64,000 bases of DNA from Paludibacter propionicigenes WB4 (lineage in GTDB: Bacteria > Bacteroidota > Bacteroidia > Bacteroidales > Paludibacteraceae): NCBI RefSeq assembly GCF_000183135.1, contig NC_014734.1, positions 2,542,001 to 2,606,000 on the forward strand, read 5' to 3'. Position 1 is the stretch's first letter. The number at the start of each line of letters is the position of its first letter. Positions 37,420 to 55,682 of the stretch are shown here, piece after piece. Below the pieces are notes generated by a model that saw only the letters and a list, made by a program, of their open reading frames with translations, was not told the DNA's origin and did no database searches. The translations under genes and the position numbers were made by a program.

Positions 37420-40400
37420 TCAATTGGAGAATTTCTTTTTGTACTCGTTTGGGCTAACTCCGAACTCATCTTTGAAGTACTTACGGAAGTATTTCGGATC
37501 GTTGAAACCCACCTGAAATGCAACTTCGTTGACAAAAAGTTGACTTTTTTCCAATAAATCGGCAGCTCGTTTAAGCCGGATAAAACGAATAAATTCGGAC
37601 GGAGTTTTATCTGTAAGTGCTAAAATTTTCTTGTAAAAATAAACACGACTCATACCCATTTCGCGGCACAAGTCTTCGACCAGAAATTCACTTGTCGAAA
37701 TATTGGCTTCAACAAGCGCTACTGCTTTTTTGACGAATTTTTCGTCCATCGATACAATTTGAACCTCGCCTAGCGTGATGTCAACTTTGTGTTTAAACTG
37801 GTCTCTGATTTTCTTTTGACGGTCTACGATTTTCTTCACTTTGAGCGAAAGCATCTCCATGTTGAATGGCTTTGGAATGTAATCTTCAGCTCCCGATTCC
37901 AGTCCGTGATATTTGTTTTCTTCACCATCTTTTGCTGTAAGAAGAATAATAGGAATATGCGAAATGCGAATATCTTGTTTCATCAGTCTGCACAGCTCAA
38001 ATCCATCCATGTTGGGCATCATCACATCACTTATCACTAAGTCGGGCATTTTTTCCAAAATCAGTTGGTAAGCTATTTTACCATCTTCGGCTTTCAAAAT
38101 CCGATAATTTTCGATAAACATGCTTGAAATAAATTCTCTGAAATCTTCATTGTCATCAACTATCAACATGAGAGGCAGTTTATTCCGGCTATCTTCGGCA
38201 ATCAATGTTGTTTCTTCTTCGACTTTTGGTTCGTTTGATTTTTCCTGAAGATCCAGACCCAGACTGATAATTTCTTCCTGAATATGAAGCCTGGCTGGAA
38301 TCTGTACAGTGAAGACAGAACCTTTTCCTATTTGACTTTCAACATTAATGCTGCCTTCGTGGAGTTTTACATATTCACTAACGATATGTAATCCCACTCC
38401 CGTTCCGGTTTGATGTCCGTTTTCGGCATTTTCTACCCGATAAAATCGATCAAAAATGCGATTCAGATCTTTCTCCGGTATTCCGGTTCCGCTATCAGAA
38501 ATATCTATTCTCAGCGTTTTCTGTTCATTATCCTGCTGAACAATCAGACTCATGTTAACATCTATCTTGCCGCCTTTAGGGGTGAACTTAAATGCATTCG
38601 AAAGCAGATTATAAATTATCTTTTTCATTTTTGCCGGATCAAACTCCATTTGGAATTCCTGAATGGATGTTGAAAAGGAAAAACTGATCATTTTTTGATT
38701 AGCCATATCTGTAAACGAGTAGCAGATATCTTTTATATAAGTCACCACATCGCCTACAGCCAAATTCAACGTATCTTTATGTACATCGAGCTTACGGAAG
38801 TCAAGTAGCTGATTTACTAACTCCAATAATCCGTTTGCATTTCGTTGAATAATACTAAGCACCGATTTTTCTTCATCCGTTTTTGCTTCTTTCAGCAGTT
38901 TTTCAATTGGATTTATGATTAATGTAAGCGGTGTGCGAAATTCATGACTCACGTTGGTGAAAAACCTGAATTTCATTTCATCTATTTCGTGCAGCTGTTT
39001 TATTTCTCTTTCGCGGTTTTCGCGCTCAAATTGTTTTTTTTGCTTTCTCAGATTGAACTTCACAATGCTCCAAAGTGCTATCAAACTCAGGATGAAATAA
39101 ATGCAATATGCCCACCAACTTAACCAGAAAGGGGGAAGAATAACAATACTAAGAACAACCGGCGATTTACTCCACACATTGTCATTGTTACTGGCATACA
39201 CTTTTAGTTGGTAAGTTCCCTGATTTAGATTGGAATAACTTACAGAACCTATTCCATTTTTTATATCAATCCAGTTCTCATCAAATCCTTCCAGTTTATA
39301 GCGGTATTTATTTTTCTGGGGATGAATATAGCTCATTGCAGAGAAGTTAACCGTAAAGTTTTTTTCATTGTAATGTAGTTCTATCTTGTTTGTAAGTACA
39401 ATCGATGAGTCTAGTACTATTCGTTTCTTCAATGTAGAACCCGGTTCTACCTCCTCATTTCCAATAAGTAGCTCTGTAAAACGAGGTTGTGGAGCTATCG
39501 TATTATAATGGATGTTCTGCGGATCAAATACTGTATAACCTTTGGTACATCCAATGTAAATTTTACCTTGTTTGTTTTTAAAAATAGCATTCTGATTAAA
39601 GATTGCGCTCAATAATCCGTCGTTTTCATCGAACGAAACAACACTGTAAACCGTTTTTTTCGAAACCGGATCCTGCTTGCAGTATATACACGTTAACCCG
39701 TTTCTTGTGCCTGCCCAAATGTTCCCGTTATTATCTTCTACCAACGAGACAACCTGATCGCTCGGTAGTCCACTCGACTTATCTATATATTCTATCGTCT
39801 TATTAGCTGGATTGTAGATGTTAATGCCATTGTCGGTGGCTATCCAAATCTGATTTTTTTTGTCGAGAAGCACATTATTTATCGTCAGGTCGGAAAGCTT
39901 GTTTTTCTGAGACGAATCTTTGAAAAGGGGACTAATTATACGAGTTGAAGTATTAAGCACATCAATACCAACCGATGTACATAGATATATATACATGGAG
40001 TCTTTGCTGAACAAAGAAACTATGTAATTTGAAGAAATTCCTTTCACATAATTGGTTTTGTGGTGACTGAAATTATTTCTGGATTTATTAAGTTCATCAA
40101 GCCCACTTCCCAATGTAGCAATCCAGATATTCTGGTTGCGGTCTTCTACCAGTCCGTAAACACTATTATTGGATAAAGAATTTGGATTATTCAGTTCAGG
40201 CTGATAATTCTGAAAACGTTCACCTACCATTTTATTCAGTCCACCCCAGAAGGTGCCAAACCACATCGTGCCGCTTTTATCTTCCAGTATGGAGATAATA
40301 ATGTCGGATGAAATGCTTGAACTATTGCCCTCTTGATTTCTGTATAGTTTAAATTTCCCGATTTTACTGTCCAGTTTCAGCACACCACTTCCGTTTGTCC

Positions 40401-40842
40401 CAATCCAGAGATTACCTTTTCTGTCTTCGTGAATTGCATTACAATCTTTATTTTCCATCTCAGGATTATTGTAAAAAAATAAAGGCGATTTTTCAAACTT
40501 AAATATTCCCGGATAAAAGTATGAGACTCCGTTTTTGTATGTTCCTACCCACATTATTCCGGTTTTATCGCAATGTAAACTAATGACAGAATTTTGACTG
40601 ATTGAATTAGGATTAGCAGGATCGTTGCGGAGCAATATCAGTTGTTTTGATGTCTTATTAAATATTTCAATTCCACCGTGATCTGTTCCAATCCATACAC
40701 GGCCTTTTTTGTCTTGTTCAATTGACCGAACCAAGTTGGAACTTATAGAATATAGTATTGACCCCGGTATATTTTTAATATTATTCCCAAAACAGCTCCA
40801 CTCTTTTTTCTTCATGTCAAAATACAAGGTTCCTTTATCCAT
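37420..40842 (-). CDS. Hybrid two-component system regulator (HTCS), main fragment
   Basis: This 1140-residue fragment holds most of an HTCS: beta-propeller sensor repeats (DRKGNLWIGTNGSGVLKLD and similar), a Y_Y_Y domain and one transmembrane segment (FWLSWWAYCIYFILSLIALW). Next come a histidine kinase (SHEFRTPLTLI phospho-His, DSGTGIPEKDLNRIFDRFYR ATP site), a receiver (LIVDDNED, phospho-Asp in VISDVMMPNMDG) and an AraC-type DNA-binding domain ending FGVSPNEYKKKFSN. HTCS proteins sense oligosaccharides in the periplasm and activate glycan-utilisation genes. The frame stays open upstream of 40842 to about 40960, where a one-base shift separates it from the N-terminal fragment. Confidence 0.93.
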   Translation of the reverse strand: MDKGTLYFDMKKKEWSCFGNNIKNIPGSILYSISSNLVRSIEQDKKGRVWIGTDHGGIEIFNKTSKQLILLRNDPANPNSISQNSVISLHCDKTGIMWVGTYKNGVSYFYPGIFKFEKSPLFFYNNPEMENKDCNAIHEDRKGNLWIGTNGSGVLKLDSKIGKFKLYRNQEGNSSSISSDIIISILEDKSGTMWFGTFWGGLNKMVGERFQNYQPELNNPNSLSNNSVYGLVEDRNQNIWIATLGSGLDELNKSRNNFSHHKTNYVKGISSNYIVSLFSKDSMYIYLCTSVGIDVLNTSTRIISPLFKDSSQKNKLSDLTINNVLLDKKNQIWIATDNGINIYNPANKTIEYIDKSSGLPSDQVVSLVEDNNGNIWAGTRNGLTCIYCKQDPVSKKTVYSVVSFDENDGLLSAIFNQNAIFKNKQGKIYIGCTKGYTVFDPQNIHYNTIAPQPRFTELLIGNEEVEPGSTLKKRIVLDSSIVLTNKIELHYNEKNFTVNFSAMSYIHPQKNKYRYKLEGFDENWIDIKNGIGSVSYSNLNQGTYQLKVYASNNDNVWSKSPVVLSIVILPPFWLSWWAYCIYFILSLIALWSIVKFNLRKQKKQFERENREREIKQLHEIDEMKFRFFTNVSHEFRTPLTLIINPIEKLLKEAKTDEEKSVLSIIQRNANGLLELVNQLLDFRKLDVHKDTLNLAVGDVVTYIKDICYSFTDMANQKMISFSFSTSIQEFQMEFDPAKMKKIIYNLLSNAFKFTPKGGKIDVNMSLIVQQDNEQKTLRIDISDSGTGIPEKDLNRIFDRFYRVENAENGHQTGTGVGLHIVSEYVKLHEGSINVESQIGKGSVFTVQIPARLHIQEEIISLGLDLQEKSNEPKVEEETTLIAEDSRNKLPLMLIVDDNEDFREFISSMFIENYRILKAEDGKIAYQLILEKMPDLVISDVMMPNMDGFELCRLMKQDIRISHIPIILLTAKDGEENKYHGLESGAEDYIPKPFNMEMLSLKVKKIVDRQKKIRDQFKHKVDITLGEVQIVSMDEKFVKKAVALVEANISTSEFLVEDLCREMGMSRVYFYKKILALTDKTPSEFIRFIRLKRAADLLEKSQLFVNEVAFQVGFNDPKYFRKYFKDEFGVSPNEYKKKFSN

Positions 40843-40952
40843 AAGACCCGGATAAATCCAGGGGCTGCCATCCGCATCTATAAATAGTCGCTTGGTTAGG
40901 GTTGATCCTTTGTCATTCTGAGTTATGAACGTGTTATTGAAATCAATTTTTT

Positions 40953-41546
40953 TTAATTTTTATTAAATCGTTCAATTAATCCGTTCGTAAAAAGAATCCA
41001 GATAAAATCATTTTGAGCTTTTATTGAGCTGATTGTACTTTTAAAATTTTTGGACTGAATGATAAAACGTATTAGTTTCTTGTTTTTTATATCGTACTCA
41101 AATAAACCATGATTGGCTTCATAGAAATAAAAATTTTTCTGATTATCGATTTCTACAATGGAGGGTTTGAAATGGATTCCGAATTCTGAAAGCAAAGGAG
41201 ATAAATTGCGATTGAAATTCTCATTTAGAATATTGTATATGCAATAACCGTTGTTGTTTCCAATCCACAAATTTCCGTTATAATCTTCCTGAATATCGTT
41301 GATTGAGTTTGAGTTTAAACTGGTAGTGTCGTTCTTAACTGATTTGTAAATTTTTACTCTGTAGCCATCATATCGGTTAAGACCATAATTAGTCCCAAAC
41401 CACATGAATCCTCTGCTATCTTTAAAGATACATTTAATTTGATTATTCGACAATCCGTTTGTGTTGTCAAGTCTGGCAAAATTAAAAGATTCAGCATGTA
41501 AGCCTAAAACTCCAAACAGGAAAAATGCAAGTATGTATTTTTTCAT
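40953..41546 (-). CDS. HTCS regulator, N-terminal fragment (frameshifted)
   Basis: This fragment has the signal peptide (MKKYILAFFLFGVLGLHA) and the first propeller repeats (LDNTNGLSNNQIKCIFKDSRGFMWFGTNYGLNRYDG) of the HTCS continued at 37420-40842. It ends ERFNKN then TAA. One extra A in the five-A run (plus-strand T run 40957-40961) would read RFNKKLKKIDF and continue without a stop into the main fragment, giving about 1375 residues, normal for an HTCS. I take the ATG at 41546; an ATG at 41561 adds MLISF. It is divergent from the PA14-containing GH31 gene. Confidence 0.9.
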   Translation of the reverse strand: MKKYILAFFLFGVLGLHAESFNFARLDNTNGLSNNQIKCIFKDSRGFMWFGTNYGLNRYDGYRVKIYKSVKNDTTSLNSNSINDIQEDYNGNLWIGNNNGYCIYNILNENFNRNLSPLLSEFGIHFKPSIVEIDNQKNFYFYEANHGLFEYDIKNKKLIRFIIQSKNFKSTISSIKAQNDFIWILFTNGLIERFNKN

Positions 41547-41575
41547 AAAAGATATAAGCATTTTATTTTCTCAGA

Positions 41576-50814: not shown

Positions 50815-51381
50815 TTAACCTCTTGATGGGTAAATACCTGACAAAGCAATACAAAAATTTATCGGGCAATAAGGTTGCATAAGACTAAATGAAGATCCAC
50901 TACCTGTTACATTGGTGACAATGCTTCCTGTTACGGCACCACCACCTACATTTAATGCTGTATCGGGATCTGTGGTACCATAAATGGAACCACCCGTAGA
51001 ACCCGACAAAACATTAATACTCCCACGTGCAACCGGGTTAGCCGATGTACCTGATGCCGAATAGGCTTTAATAGTAGCCGACGCAGTCCCTATGATACCT
51101 GTATGATTATGGGCAACTAAAGTAGTGCAATTTTCAGTACCACCCGACTCCCCTTGTTCATAAAGCGCTAAACCTGGGCCTTGGCCTGCACCAATCATCA
51201 CCCGACCCCGTAAGTCAGGCAGACCGAAATTACTTGATCCATTGCCACCATACTGTGTTCCAAGCAATGCATAAAGAGCCGAGTTTTGAGATATTGGAAG
51301 CAGTGTGCCATCACAAGAAGCCCAATAATAAGGAGGAAAATTAAATCCAAAAGCTGCGATAAATGCCAAAAAGGTTTCCAT
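50815..51381 (-). CDS. Tail-collar (MdpB-like, microcystin-dependent) protein
   Basis: This 188-residue protein matches the phage tail-collar/MdpB pattern. It starts METFLAFIAAFGFNFPPYYW, then has CDGTLLPISQNSALYALLGTQYGG, LPDLRGRVMIGAGQGPG, VAHNHTG and a Gly/Ser-rich C-terminus ending in PYCPINFCIALSGIYP. Such proteins occur outside prophages in many Bacteroidota, with unknown role. No other phage genes are present here. The ATG at 51381 is the family start; the longer frame to 51534 overlaps the DUF6261-like gene. Confidence 0.85.
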   Translation of the reverse strand: METFLAFIAAFGFNFPPYYWASCDGTLLPISQNSALYALLGTQYGGNGSSNFGLPDLRGRVMIGAGQGPGLALYEQGESGGTENCTTLVAHNHTGIIGTASATIKAYSASGTSANPVARGSINVLSGSTGGSIYGTTDPDTALNVGGGAVTGSIVTNVTGSGSSFSLMQPYCPINFCIALSGIYPSRG

Positions 51382-51469
51382 AAAATTTAAATTTAAATGA
51401 TTAGTATTATTTTGAGAATTATTTATTGCTCCCGGCTGCATGTTGCCACTCTTCCGGGGGCGGTGTTTT

Positions 51470-52222
51470 TTAGGTTTTCTTGGGACTGTCCGTATCGGTT
51501 TCGTCCTCTCCATCTTTTTTGGCGTTCCGTCCATGGCGTTGAGCCAACAGGTTACGGTAATTTCCCACCCGCTGGTTTTGCTCCGTCACAAGTGGCGCAT
51601 AGGCCGTTTCGCCGTTTACTTCTATCAACGCATTGAGGTGTTTGAGCACCGTACGGTAAATATTGTCGGTAGAAAGGCGCGATTGTTTCAGGTTTTCCTG
51701 CGGTTTGGCTCCGTTTTCGGAGTAACGTTCGTTTTTCAGGTTATCGAATGCCGTATTCCTTGTCTTGAGTTCCGGTACCCATCCACCTATGCCCACTATA
51801 GCCACATCGGCAGCATAAGTGCCTTCCAGTTCGGCCACCAGTTTTACTATGGACGATGTTTCCTGATCGTAAGGTTTGTGTGGTACATCGCCGTAAGTAT
51901 CCAGCAATAGGCTCAACCTATCAGCCGCCTTGCGCACATTGGCATCGTAATGGTTGTGTGCCGAACTGATAGTGCCCGACATGCCGCTGAAGGTAGCATC
52001 CCGCATCCTGTCCATTTCCGACAGATCGTCGGTAATATCGCTGGCACGTAACACATTAAGCATATTGTTTTCCTGTTCAATACCTGCCACATACGTCGGC
52101 AGTTTATCTCCCAAGCCCTGAACTGCCACGGGGTTCGTTGCAATCAGCTTCGAGAAATCAGAATGAAACTTATAATGTTCTTCATTTCTGAATTCACCCA
52201 ATTTCAATGTCTGTATTTCCAT
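51470..52222 (-). CDS. DUF6261-like protein
   Basis: This 250-residue cytoplasmic protein is probably all-helical. It starts MEIQTLKLGEFRNEEHYKFH and ends in a hydrophilic tail (AKKDGEDETDTDSPKKT). The start and the helix NVRKAADRLSLLLDTYGDV resemble the DUF6261 family of Bacteroidota. There is no catalytic motif. It precedes the tail-collar gene by 88 bases and is presumably cotranscribed. Sampled blocks of this gene are markedly GC-richer (about 55%) than the radical SAM cassette upstream. I take the ATG at 52222; one at 52297 adds 25 residues. Confidence 0.7.
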   Translation of the reverse strand: MEIQTLKLGEFRNEEHYKFHSDFSKLIATNPVAVQGLGDKLPTYVAGIEQENNMLNVLRASDITDDLSEMDRMRDATFSGMSGTISSAHNHYDANVRKAADRLSLLLDTYGDVPHKPYDQETSSIVKLVAELEGTYAADVAIVGIGGWVPELKTRNTAFDNLKNERYSENGAKPQENLKQSRLSTDNIYRTVLKHLNALIEVNGETAYAPLVTEQNQRVGNYRNLLAQRHGRNAKKDGEDETDTDSPKKT

Positions 52223-52373
52223 AAATAATTTATAAAATTTTGATTGTATTATTCTGAATTGACAGGGCTTATCAAATGCCCCTGCAATGTTTATCATTAC
52301 CTGAAGTTGCCTGTCTTTTCATCCGTCGGCTTTTATCCTTGGCTGTAAGTGTACCGGAGTTTTCTGTAGTATC

Positions 52374-52560: not shown

Positions 52561-52629
52561 CAGACCCTCCCACAGGGATTTATTACGACCGGCTATCCTT
52601 CATTTCCTGTTTTTTTGTTCATTTTTTTT

Positions 52630-52668
52630 AAAAGAACAGGCTAACCAATACCTTAGCCTGTTCTTTTA
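52630..52668 (-). terminator. Terminator of the radical SAM cassette
   Basis: AAAAGAACAGGCTAA (52630-52644) pairs with TTAGCCTGTTCTTTT (52654-52668). It lies 14 bases after the cystatin-like gene, with T-rich sequence following on the minus strand. Confidence 0.88.
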
Positions 52669-52681
52669 TTGTCAACCGGTT

Positions 52682-52957
52682 TTATTCAATCGGTTTAATA
52701 GGAGCAGAAAGTACTGCCGGTCCGTTAAGAGGTTTGTAAACCGGCACAAGTGCTCCATAATGTGGGGCATCAGGATAAACCACCTGTGCATCGCACAAGA
52801 AACGATAATTCGTTCCGCTTACCATCTGACTGGCCACTGCCAATGGAGTGTAATTTACTCCTACATGTCCTTTAAGCGCTTCTTTAAAAGCTGCCATTGC
52901 TTCTGCTGAGATACTGGTGCTGTATGCTGTCCATGCACCGACCTTACTTGTACTCAT
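52682..52957 (-). CDS. Cystatin-like 91-residue protein
   Basis: This small protein has one predicted helix (ISAEAMAAFKEALKG) followed by strands: GVNYTPLAVASQMVSGTNYRF, LCDAQVVYP, and GALVPVYKPLNG. QMVSG fits the cystatin QxVxG loop, and the helix-then-strand order matches that fold, so a protease-inhibitor-like or ligand-binding role is possible. There is no signal peptide. It is the last gene of the radical SAM cassette, 12 bases after the 66-residue gene, with a strong terminator behind it. Confidence 0.7.
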   Translation of the reverse strand: MSTSKVGAWTAYSTSISAEAMAAFKEALKGHVGVNYTPLAVASQMVSGTNYRFLCDAQVVYPDAPHYGALVPVYKPLNGPAVLSAPIKPIE

Positions 52958-52969
52958 TTTCTTTAGGTA

Positions 52970-53170
52970 TTAGATTTTATGCCTACTCTTTGTTCCGCTT
53001 TTCGGCTGCTGCGGTTTAATAGTTCTGTTTTTTTTTAGATACAATAGTAGATTGTCTGAATAATAGCGGCTTACCTGATATTTTCCTATAGAACCAAGAC
53101 AATCCTCGGGCGAATTAAAAACGTCTGAGTTTATTTTCTTACAGTTATTACTTGTACAAATTGTTATCAT
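52970..53170 (-). CDS. 66-residue Cys-containing peptide following the radical SAM gene
   Basis: I do not recognise it. It starts MITICTSNNCKKINSD, has a third Cys in PEDCLGSIGKYQ, and ends very basic (KKNRTIKPQQPKSGTKSRHK). Its ATG is two bases after the stop of the radical SAM gene, which implies translational coupling. It could be a second substrate of the maturase, an accessory binding peptide, or an unrelated small protein. Confidence 0.6.
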   Translation of the reverse strand: MITICTSNNCKKINSDVFNSPEDCLGSIGKYQVSRYYSDNLLLYLKKNRTIKPQQPKSGTKSRHKI

Positions 53171-53172
53171 TT

Positions 53173-54429
53173 TTAAATAATACTATAATCTTTATCTTTA
53201 ATATTATTTCCTGTTCTTAGCAGAATAATATTGTTTAATTGGAACTTGTATAAAGTTTCGCATAAACTGTCAGGTTTATCAAACGAATTATGATAAAAAT
53301 ATGAGTCTGCTCTACAGCCTGCATGACACGTGGTCACAAAATGGCAAGTACTACATTTTTCAATTTCAGTTGACTTTGACCTAATTTTCAGACTAGCTAC
53401 TTTTTTAGTAATTTCATCGAAATTGTTTACTAATATATTTCCTAATTTAAATTCCTTTCTTGATAATACATGACATGGATAAATATCACCATTTACGTCT
53501 ATATCGAAAACAGTATTTCCTAACCCGCAAACCAAGTGTTTTTCATTATTATAAACATCTGATTCTTTACACTTTAGTTCATTGCCCTTTAAATTATAAC
53601 TTTTCACTTCCATTCTGGCCTTTTTGATTAAATTAAGTGATTTAATCAAATTCTCCGGTGAAAGCGACAGGCTTTTCATTTTATTTTCAGGAACATACCT
53701 TAAATTATTAGGTGCAATATCTCCATTATGGTTAAATGCAAATTTTGCTATGTCGTATATTTCCTGCACATTGAAATCATGTACTGTTGGTGCAATAGAG
53801 AAAGGTATTTTATGAGCAATTAATGTTTTAATGCCCTTTATTACTTCATTGTATGTATTCCCTCTTGTAATTTTGTGTACTTCTGGCGTAAACCCATCTA
53901 AACTAACTTGGACTCTTTTTAAGTATTTGCATTTTGATAATAATCGAGCAATTTCGTTTTTAAGAAGACTACCATTTGTCAATATTGAATAACTATTTTT
54001 CCTTTTTTCGAGAAAATCAATAAACTCCACAAACAGAGGATGCATAAGCGGCTCCCCTCCGGTTATTACAAAATGGCATTCTGAATTAATTGATGAGACT
54101 TTTGATATAATATCACAATATGTACTCATATCCATATATTTTGCTTTGTGGGCATTACCCTTATAGCAATATGGACAACTAAAATTACACGCTTGAGTCA
54201 AATTTAAATAGATCAACTGTATTGGCTTCTCTATAGCTTCCTCTATGTTTTTATTTAACCAACCGTCATCAACAATTTTATTAAATAAATTATATGCTTT
54301 TCTTTCAGAAACTAATTTATCATAACCGCTCAACCGAAAGCAATCTAGAATAATATCTTTTTGAGTGTTACGGGCAGATAGTTCTATCATTTTCATAATG
54401 ACAAGCTCTTCTGCCGTAAGCACACTCAA
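53173..54429 (-). CDS. Radical SAM/SPASM peptide maturase
   Basis: This frame of 418 residues has the radical SAM cluster motif CNFSCPYC in LTQACNFSCPYCYKGN, the GGEP motif (FVITGGEPLMHP), and a full SPASM region: CGLG...GDIYPCH, then CSTCHFVTTCHAGC and a last Cys in SLCE. Such enzymes install radical-based crosslinks in ribosomal peptides. The frame begins at a TTG (54429). The conserved N-terminus (IVSNPKIGALSVLTAEE) extends further upstream, interrupted by a one-base shift (see 54430-54497). The gene is AT-rich (sampled blocks 23-35% GC). It follows the precursor-like peptide gene. Confidence 0.9.
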   Translation of the reverse strand: MSVLTAEELVIMKMIELSARNTQKDIILDCFRLSGYDKLVSERKAYNLFNKIVDDGWLNKNIEEAIEKPIQLIYLNLTQACNFSCPYCYKGNAHKAKYMDMSTYCDIISKVSSINSECHFVITGGEPLMHPLFVEFIDFLEKRKNSYSILTNGSLLKNEIARLLSKCKYLKRVQVSLDGFTPEVHKITRGNTYNEVIKGIKTLIAHKIPFSIAPTVHDFNVQEIYDIAKFAFNHNGDIAPNNLRYVPENKMKSLSLSPENLIKSLNLIKKARMEVKSYNLKGNELKCKESDVYNNEKHLVCGLGNTVFDIDVNGDIYPCHVLSRKEFKLGNILVNNFDEITKKVASLKIRSKSTEIEKCSTCHFVTTCHAGCRADSYFYHNSFDKPDSLCETLYKFQLNNIILLRTGNNIKDKDYSII

Positions 54430-54497
54430 TGCCCCTATTTTCGGATTACTTACAATAAAAAATCATCAATACTTGTAATTCTAAGATCTGAATACAT
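54430..54497 (-). other. Displaced 5' end of the radical SAM gene
   Basis: The ATG at 54497 reads MYSDLRITSIDDF and then meets a stop. In the frame of the main gene the sequence just upstream of 54429 reads FFIVSNPKIGA after two TGA codons. Adding one T to the six-T run (plus-strand A run 54457-54462) joins them as SIDDFFIVSNPKIGALSVL, giving a 441-residue maturase with a normal N-terminus. Confidence 0.8.
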
Positions 54498-54556
54498 ATC
54501 GCTTAATTTAAACAACCACAGAAGTAAAATTTTAAATTAAAAAATAATTAATAATT

Positions 54557-54796
54557 TCATAATCCTTCTTTATGTCCAACTTCATGACATCCAACAAATG
54601 GAGCACCAACTTTTGCACATACTTTGACACATAAATCAGGAGCTGCTTTAACACTCTTGGGACTTTGCATTTCATCAATAAATAAATCTTTTGTATCCAA
54701 TCCTTGTTCTTTAAGAACCTTTTGTGGATCTTTTAAAAATTCTGCAGTCAACTCTTTATCAAATTGAATTTTGTTTAATACTTCTTGTAATTTCAT
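54557..54796 (-). CDS. RiPP precursor-like peptide (79 residues)
   Basis: The N-terminal part (MKLQEVLNKIQFDKELTAEF and LKDPQKVLKEQG) resembles leader peptides of the nitrile-hydratase-like/Nif11-like class, in which an L-x-DP-x3-L-x-E-G block is typical. After an AAPDL stretch comes a 24-residue tail with three Cys: CVKVCAKVGAPFVGCHEVGH. The gene lies directly before a radical SAM/SPASM maturase. I infer that the tail is a core peptide modified at Cys, possibly by thioether bonds. No protease or exporter gene is adjacent. Confidence 0.75.
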   Translation of the reverse strand: MKLQEVLNKIQFDKELTAEFLKDPQKVLKEQGLDTKDLFIDEMQSPKSVKAAPDLCVKVCAKVGAPFVGCHEVGHKEGL

Positions 54797-54899: not shown

Positions 54900-55310
54900 T
54901 TATTTTGCATTCAGTTCTGCTTTCATACCTTCGGCAATCAGTTCCCAAGCATTTCCGGCAGGGATATTTCCGCCCAATGTAGAATCGAAAATGGTAATTG
55001 TACCAATCACAGGGGCATCCACTGTTATCTTCACATGCATCGAAGCATAGGCAGCTGTTTTCTGGTAACCGCTGATAATCACCAGCACTTTAGGATTGTC
55101 ATTTACCACTTTGGTCATGTCGCCATCCACCTGAATGGGGCCTCCCTGTACATGTCCGCTTTTCACTCCGCTAAATACGCAATCGTAACTGATACCCAAA
55201 TGGTCGTTTTCTTGTTTTACTAAAGTAAGTGTGGTATCCACGTTAATTTTCACAGGCCATACACCAAAACTATGATGTTCGGCTTTTTTGTCAATGACAG
55301 TGTAACTCAT
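54900..55310 (-). CDS. Hypothetical 136-residue protein upstream of the radical SAM cassette
   Basis: I do not recognise it. It has no signal peptide, Cys only at one position (ISYDCVFSG), and alternating strand-like segments (FGVWPVKINVDTTLTLV, KVLVIISGYQK, MHVKITVDAPVIGTITIFD), suggesting a compact beta-rich soluble protein. It ends AWELIAEGMKAELNAK. The precursor-like gene starts 103 bases downstream on the same strand. Its GC is closer to the genome average than that of the cassette. The 372 bases upstream of it (55311-55682) contain nothing I can identify. Confidence 0.6.
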   Translation of the reverse strand: MSYTVIDKKAEHHSFGVWPVKINVDTTLTLVKQENDHLGISYDCVFSGVKSGHVQGGPIQVDGDMTKVVNDNPKVLVIISGYQKTAAYASMHVKITVDAPVIGTITIFDSTLGGNIPAGNAWELIAEGMKAELNAK

Positions 55311-55682
55311 AAATAATAGTATTAGTAATGTTTGTTCCTACTCATAACGTTTTTCGGTTTCCACGGTGGTGTTTTAACGGTACCCACGAACGTATTACAA
55401 TTTCGTCAAACAATGTTGCGCACTATTGCTTAAAAGAATAGTAATTTTATGGAGGTAAAAATAGTGGGAAGAATCAGTGTGTCACTTATCAATAGATACA
55501 AAGTGAGCGTATCATTTGATAAATTGAAATTTTTTTTGGAAGGGGTACGGAAGATACTTAATCTTATGGTACAGAGATGAATGTTTGGTTCTTTCTTGTC
55601 TATATAGGCACGTAGATGAAGAACACTTTAGGTCAATAGCGTACTATCTATCCGCCTAAAGCATGTTTTTGAATGTTTCTGT

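Follow-up and report, generated by a model that had tools for sequence, protein, structure and literature searches.

Does this stretch of DNA encode a four-gene system for a ribosomally synthesized and post-translationally modified peptide (RiPP), or a smaller one? The stretch, called the window here, is 64 kb long and covers bases 2542001-2606000 of the single 3.69-Mb contig of Paludibacter propionicigenes WB4 (genome 99.99% complete). On its minus strand, an initial annotation had joined a 79-aa precursor peptide, a radical-SAM/SPASM maturase, a 66-aa cysteine peptide and a 91-aa cystatin-like protein into one candidate RiPP locus. All four open reading frames (ORFs; 79, 418, 66 and 91 aa) were found in place by an ORF check. 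As one system they did not hold together: the 91-aa gene has a leader RNA of its own, and the 66-aa ORF is doubtful. The locus is rather probably a two-gene, AT-rich and possibly imported RiPP-type cassette, consisting of the 79-aa precursor and the SPASM maturase. The parts of this pair are as follows.

54557..54796, minus strand: 79-aa candidate RiPP precursor (ORF, GC by codon position, NHLP-clan matches below cut-off)
53173..54429, minus strand: SPASM radical-SAM enzyme, 418 codons from TTG (Pfam, alignment, structure model, PDB relatives)
54430..54497, minus strand: stretch in which the maturase gene probably begins (sequence, three-frame translation, comparison with homologue N-termini)

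The SPASM radical-SAM enzyme

The enzyme matched both Pfam Radical_SAM (E-value 3.3e-25, 89.6 bits; cut-off 29.5) and Pfam SPASM (1.2e-8, 35.5 bits; cut-off 21.5). The canonical SPASM pattern has seven cysteines, CX9-15GX4C ... CX2CX5CX3C ... C. Sequence and alignment agreed with it: the seven SPASM cysteines are at residues 301, 319, 359, 362, 368, 372 and 390 (CX12GX4C-CX2CX5CX3CX17C). Together with a CX3CX2C motif at residues 81-88, they make up the complete set of cluster motifs that had been reported.

In NCBIfam, the best matches were peptide maturases first (mycofactocin, DynA, ScmE and PapB), interspersed with enzymes of the heme and MoaA types, and all of the best 25 matches listed fell below the cut-off. 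The 13 sequence relatives in the PDB included SkfB, 5wgg (CteB), PqqE and SuiB, and also viperin-like enzymes, BlsE and MoaA. Foldseek ranked anSME first, followed by SuiB, SkfB and CteB, with ChlB, TigE, BlsE, PqqE, DesII and viperins on lower ranks. The identity to the maturase structures was 15-23%. The AlphaFold model of the core was confident, with a predicted local distance difference test (pLDDT) score above 90 across most of residues 71-240. Among known enzymes, the core comes closest to maturases of peptides or proteins (anSME, SuiB, SkfB and CteB). A defence library gave viperin-type radical-SAM similarity only.

No close relative of the enzyme was found among 60 relatives (own genome included), where the best other match had 79 bits, and in 393 genomes of the order (own included) the best other match had 101.9 bits and 29% identity. 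All 246 matching plasmid records were below 60% identity. Exact peptide patterns found no copy in genome or viral contigs, a collection that may not include the own genome. In a degenerate scan of genome contigs with alignment A3, the best 80 of 414 matches were all ≤30% identical.

The 79-aa peptide

As had been noted, a ribosome site (GGAG) lies ~9 nt 5' of the ATG of the 79-aa peptide. The GC content by codon position is strongly biased (0.54/0.28/0.12), and the codon score has a z of 3.8 against shuffles. The stop codon is separated by 59 nt from the upstream ATG of the maturase (54497). ORFs and motifs thus bear out the claim that a SPASM radical-SAM enzyme adjoins a leader-like small peptide with a cysteine tail. 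The tail carries C56, C60 and C70 (CX3CX9C), plus His71 and His75, and the leader-like block spans approximately residues 3-34. Weak matches to the NHLP clan fell on this same N-terminal part of about 30 residues: NF038399 (Os1348/NHLP clan) at an E-value of 3.2e-4 and 20.7 bits, below the cut-off of 40, and TIGR03793 (NHLP) at 14.0 bits, below the cut-off of 50.9.

The peptide had no relative besides itself in 395 genomes of the phylum at E ≤0.001, and none in plasmids. In the 60 relatives and the 393 order genomes, only matches with E-values of 0.005-0.1 appeared beyond itself, and a phmmer search of 5197 ORFs of 35-160 aa, drawn from 129 loci that mostly surround radical-SAM genes, returned only its own two copies. 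The matches at 0.005-0.1 (19 other genomes of the 393 and one other of the 60 relatives) were dismissed as chance. Most lay in open frames of at least 170 residues. Three of these 20 matches were inspected (L173, L174 and L180) and none had a small gene listed at the match position; the one in L180 was antisense to a larger ORF.

It had been remarked that no exporter or leader protease is encoded nearby. This was confirmed and extends to the whole genome for Peptidase_C39 (PF03412), which had no match at E ≤0.001, while eight of 14 control genomes were positive; the search covers peptidase-bearing transporters only, and transporters without a C39 peptidase were not sought. The usual route of trimming and export therefore seems absent.

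The proposed pair and the points against it

The peptide and the SPASM enzyme form a plausible RiPP-type pair, believable but unproven. The 79-aa peptide would be the precursor; a putative winged-helix N-terminus of the maturase, resembling a RiPP recognition element (RRE), would bind the peptide's N-terminal block. Such an element is described as an N-terminal winged helix of three strands and three helices (PMC10352776). The radical-SAM/SPASM core would then install cross-links on the CX3CX9C tail, most likely Cys thioethers of the ranthipeptide or sactipeptide type. By analogy to SuiB, SkfB and CteB, leader gripping and cross-linking of the Cys tail are the most likely activities of the enzyme. 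The product may have its role within the cell, may be trimmed by a general protease or may not be made at all. We infer the pairing of substrate and enzyme, the cross-link, the RRE role and the import of the pair.

As regards import, the GC content was 0.31 for the peptide and 0.30 for the enzyme. In 28 large ORFs, GC averaged 0.414 (sd 0.045), with 0.296 as the lowest value. This suggests that the pair was possibly acquired horizontally, although low GC is no proof. The search of the 60 relatives and the 393 order genomes, which gave no close relative of the enzyme, points the same way.

Several observations weigh against the proposed pair. The 79-aa peptide stayed under every curated family cut-off, and no Gly-Gly cleavage motif occurs in its 79 residues. 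Peptide and enzyme were found together in no other genome, so the pairing rests on their adjacency. The three helices modelled at enzyme residues 6-54 have low confidence (pLDDT ~41-51), and the frame of the enzyme appears to be broken near its start. Finally, low GC is weak evidence of import because one of the 28 other large ORFs also reaches 0.296.

The apparent frame break at the 5' end of the enzyme

The strongest competing explanation starts from this break. It is possible, though doubtful, that the pair is decayed or mis-assembled: either the maturase has lost its recognition N-terminus and no product is made, or the assembly contains a run-length error and the gene is whole.

The frame of the enzyme is open upstream of the TTG to 54462, with two stops beyond (54463-54468). 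An ATG at 54497 opens 15 codons in another frame (54453-54497, stop at 54450-54452), and the two frames meet at a run of T (54457-54462). The in-frame residues upstream of the TTG, FFIVSNPKIGAL, resemble the N-termini of some homologues. Adding them raised the mean score against 38 homologue N-termini more than all but four of 300 shuffles did. The gain came from 11 of the 38, which are not independent, as most belong to one related group. Translation of the enzyme probably begins 5' of the TTG, in a different frame. The strand region of the winged helix would also lie upstream, across the break.

Homologue-like residues before the TTG and an ATG in a different frame fit decay or mis-assembly. 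So does a regulator elsewhere in the window (37420-41561, minus strand) that also looks split, with its frames meeting at an A run near 40900. Of its two pieces (202 and 1140 aa), the family search covered the 202-aa one, in which Reg_prop was found. A second split at a run suggests a general tendency to run-length errors or slippage. On the other hand, all 20 radical-SAM domain matches in the genome, including the enzyme, were without an internal stop, and the 79-aa peptide has kept its coding bias.

Both an assembly error and a real frame break were ranked above programmed frameshifting, the least likely cause of the T-run break. RNA folding after the T run was unremarkable (z −0.74), and there is thus no support for a frameshift-stimulating structure. 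We give hardly any credence to −1 frameshifting at T TTT TTA (54456-54462) that would yield the maturase with and without its leader-recognition N-terminus, as part of a RiPP class of one genome with an NHLP-like leader without Gly-Gly, a CX3CX9C tail and a cell without C39.

A possible unmodified small protein

The 79-aa protein could also remain unmodified, for example binding metal via its Cys and His tail, with the enzyme acting on something else. Its place outside every family at the cut-offs, the missing Gly-Gly motif and the genome without a C39 peptidase are all in keeping with such a protein. We nevertheless consider this unlikely, given the leader-like block of the peptide and its position beside a SPASM enzyme that has peptide maturases among its nearest structures.

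The 66-aa ORF and the DUF805b RNA

The peptide-enzyme pair is flanked on either side by a gene with a DUF805b leader; one leader scores over and the other under the Rfam score. The features around the pair are listed below.

52970..53170, minus strand: 66-aa ORF, probably no gene; its 3' part is DUF805b RNA (Rfam, codon statistics)
52980..53015, minus strand: DUF805b cis-regulatory RNA, leader of the 91-aa gene (Rfam RF02914)
52682..52957, minus strand: 91-aa cystatin/stefin-like protein, a neighbour judged to be outside the pair (profile, fold, genomic context)
52629..52668, minus strand: intrinsic terminator 3' of the 91-aa gene (hairpin folding, sequence)
54900..55310, minus strand: 136-aa protein, neighbour 5' of the pair (no family match; weaker DUF805b-like leader)
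55335..55367, minus strand: second DUF805b-like RNA, 24 nt before the 136-aa ATG (29.5 bits, below gathering)

The 66-aa ORF had been taken for a second precursor or a partner with its own cysteine. The RNA in its 3' end speaks against this reading. Rfam RF02914 (DUF805b) matched 52980-53015 on the same strand with 40.9 bits (gathering 35.6; E-value 3.5e-8 on the window), the only Rfam match over gathering in the 64 kb. The match covers part of the 3' third of the ORF and ends 22 nt before the start codon of the 91-aa gene. What had been seen as a basic tail of the peptide is accordingly this RNA read in frame.

The GC content of the ORF by codon position was flat (0.31/0.36/0.33), and no Pfam or NCBIfam family was found over the cut-off. 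Its codon score of −0.089 per codon was low but not zero against shuffles (z 2.4); the score of the enzyme was also slightly negative (−0.023), but with a z of 7.5. Taken by itself, the coding statistic is compatible with a 66-aa gene. The ORF was rejected as a gene on the RNA inside it and the flat codon-position GC, with the z of 2.4 speaking the other way. The "Cys peptide" is probably a regulatory RNA that was misread as a peptide.

DUF805b occurred in 30 of 40 relatives (own included) at E ≤1e-5, with 17 of the 40 scoring over gathering; the 14 control genomes had no copy. The own genome has eight copies at E ≤0.001, three of them over gathering. These eight copies and three from one congener were laid out, and in all 11 (DUF805 or DUF805b) an ORF of at least 60 codons starts 9-51 nt downstream of the RNA; this spacing has no chance control. 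A promoter consensus before the leaders could not be demonstrated (one exact TAnnTTTG among the 11). The word DUF805b was not found in a literature search.

Arrays of DUF805/DUF805b were also seen in three other loci (G023:C204, G002:C136 and G016:C48; L183-L185), mostly directly before different genes on the same strand. Many of the genes behind them had N-termini that looked lipoprotein- or secretion-like by eye, and one genome had 22 copies at E ≤1e-5. The arrayed RNAs could serve an envelope regulon as a common leader, acting in translation or regulation.

The cystatin-like protein

The description of the 91-aa protein as cystatin-like stands. It has a QMVSG loop (QxVxG type), and a profile of nine 91-aa relatives matched a solved type-1 cystatin with an E-value of 5.6e-4. 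Its predicted structure had medium confidence (mean pLDDT 71.5). The first 17 PDB matches in Foldseek were all cystatins or stefins, with a best E-value of only 5.7e-3. The Pfam cystatin model did not match the protein, and one of the nine members reached 0.0096. Downstream of the gene, the terminator that had been proposed was recovered as a strong hairpin (−22.7 kcal/mol, z −8.05).

Its role as a partner of the RiPP system fared differently, given the leader RNA of its own and its genomic context. Relatives were present in two of the 60 relatives and nine of the 393 order genomes (own included in both). The context was counted in eight other genomes (L032 and L047-L053), with neighbours judged by eye from ORF listings, for ~4 kb either side in L047-L053; neighbours were searched for families in L032 only. 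The genome G604 (L054) was excluded from this count because its match to the 91-aa profile lies in a longer protein that looked like a rhodanese by eye, and the match was dropped.

In six of the eight, no radical-SAM gene was listed in the neighbourhood; two of the six (L049 and L051) represent a single locus within one genus. The relative in L047 adjoins two other kinds of radical-SAM gene, which we take to be HydE and HemN. In the congener G027 (L032:9489-10832), the relative lies 0.9-1.2 kb from a 71-aa peptide with a two-Cys tail and its own DUF805b leader, and from a 321-aa radical-SAM gene. The latter was nearest to the TIGR04463, Clo7bot and CefB maturases; its best families differ from those of the enzyme in the window, all below the cut-off. 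Of three plasmids with a relative, one has an annotated radical SAM ~2.2 kb away, one is unannotated and one is without a radical-SAM gene. These coincidences merit mention but fall short of a conserved gene set.

DUF805b precedes the 91-aa gene in the own genome and, with a score of 33.6 bits that is below gathering, in L030/L032. The relatives in L037-L042 and L045 had no such RNA beside them at E ≤0.01. The cystatin-like gene is probably an unrelated neighbour outside the peptide-enzyme pair. The gene set had been put forward as matching no described family; this novelty arose from counting neighbours that are probably outside the system.

A four-gene RiPP operon in which the 66-aa peptide and the cystatin-like protein are partners is thus very improbable: the shared strand and tight spacing, the nearby radical-SAM genes in the congener and on one of three plasmids and the mildly raised codon score of the 66-aa ORF speak for it, but the RNA inside that ORF and its flat codon-position GC, the six relatives without a radical-SAM neighbour, the one beside other kinds and the differing families of the congener's enzyme speak against it.

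As a separate observation, relatives of the 91-aa protein with 45-48% identity were present on four IMG/VR contigs filed as viral (L078-L081).

Comparison with known systems

The enzyme shares the radical-SAM core and the seven-Cys SPASM domain with known SPASM maturases (SuiB, SkfB, CteB, ChlB, PqqE and anSME), as well as an adjacent small peptide gene and an N-terminal extension whose helices, modelled at low confidence, would fit a winged helix. It differs from them in its low identity (15-23%), in reaching no curated NCBIfam family, in a 5' end that is apparently frame-broken and in a genome without a C39 peptidase.

NHLP precursors have been described with a Gly-Gly cleavage motif before the core (PMC2887384), and Os1348-type precursors have also been described (PMC7726476). 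With these families (TIGR03793 and NF038399) the 79-aa peptide has in common a short N-terminal motif with a DPxxxLxxQG block. In contrast, it is below both cut-offs and without the Gly-Gly motif, and no transporter with a C39 peptidase was found. The presumed leader comprises ~50 residues, whereas an average cleavage position of 83 is given for NHLP precursors (PMC2887384).

In Bacteroidales RiPP clusters, radical SAM was the commonest enzyme, and radical SAM alone was the commonest class; seven of nine chosen clusters had a C39 transporter, and most precursors had a GG-type motif (PMC10352776). The bacteria are related to ours, but neither the transporter nor the motif was found here. A literature search gave no description of this peptide-enzyme pair among the matches listed.

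Stefins and cystatins have been reported in Bacteroidetes (PMC2784779). The 91-aa family resembles them in the QxVxG loop (eight of nine aligned members), the cystatin profile and the fold matches, and no signal peptide was seen by eye. It differs in lacking a Pfam match and in the DUF805b leader in this genus.

If active, the locus would be a minimal pair of peptide and maturase without the usual export peptidase, which would be useful for studying RiPP roles inside the cell. Moreover, the locus illustrates that, next to a maturase gene, a short leader RNA with structure may pass for the gene of a small peptide, and RiPP mining by small ORFs is prone to this error.

Other genes and loci

Upstream of the pair, no Pfam or NCBIfam family was found for the 136-aa protein. 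Two genes overlap downstream of the locus (50815-52297, minus strand), one for a DUF6261 protein and the other for a protein with a phage-tail-collar domain. In Prevotella sp. P3-122 (L127:3483-6381), three genes lie in a row: one for a 60-aa peptide that contains a VVGG motif, a radical-SAM gene and one that looks like YcaO.

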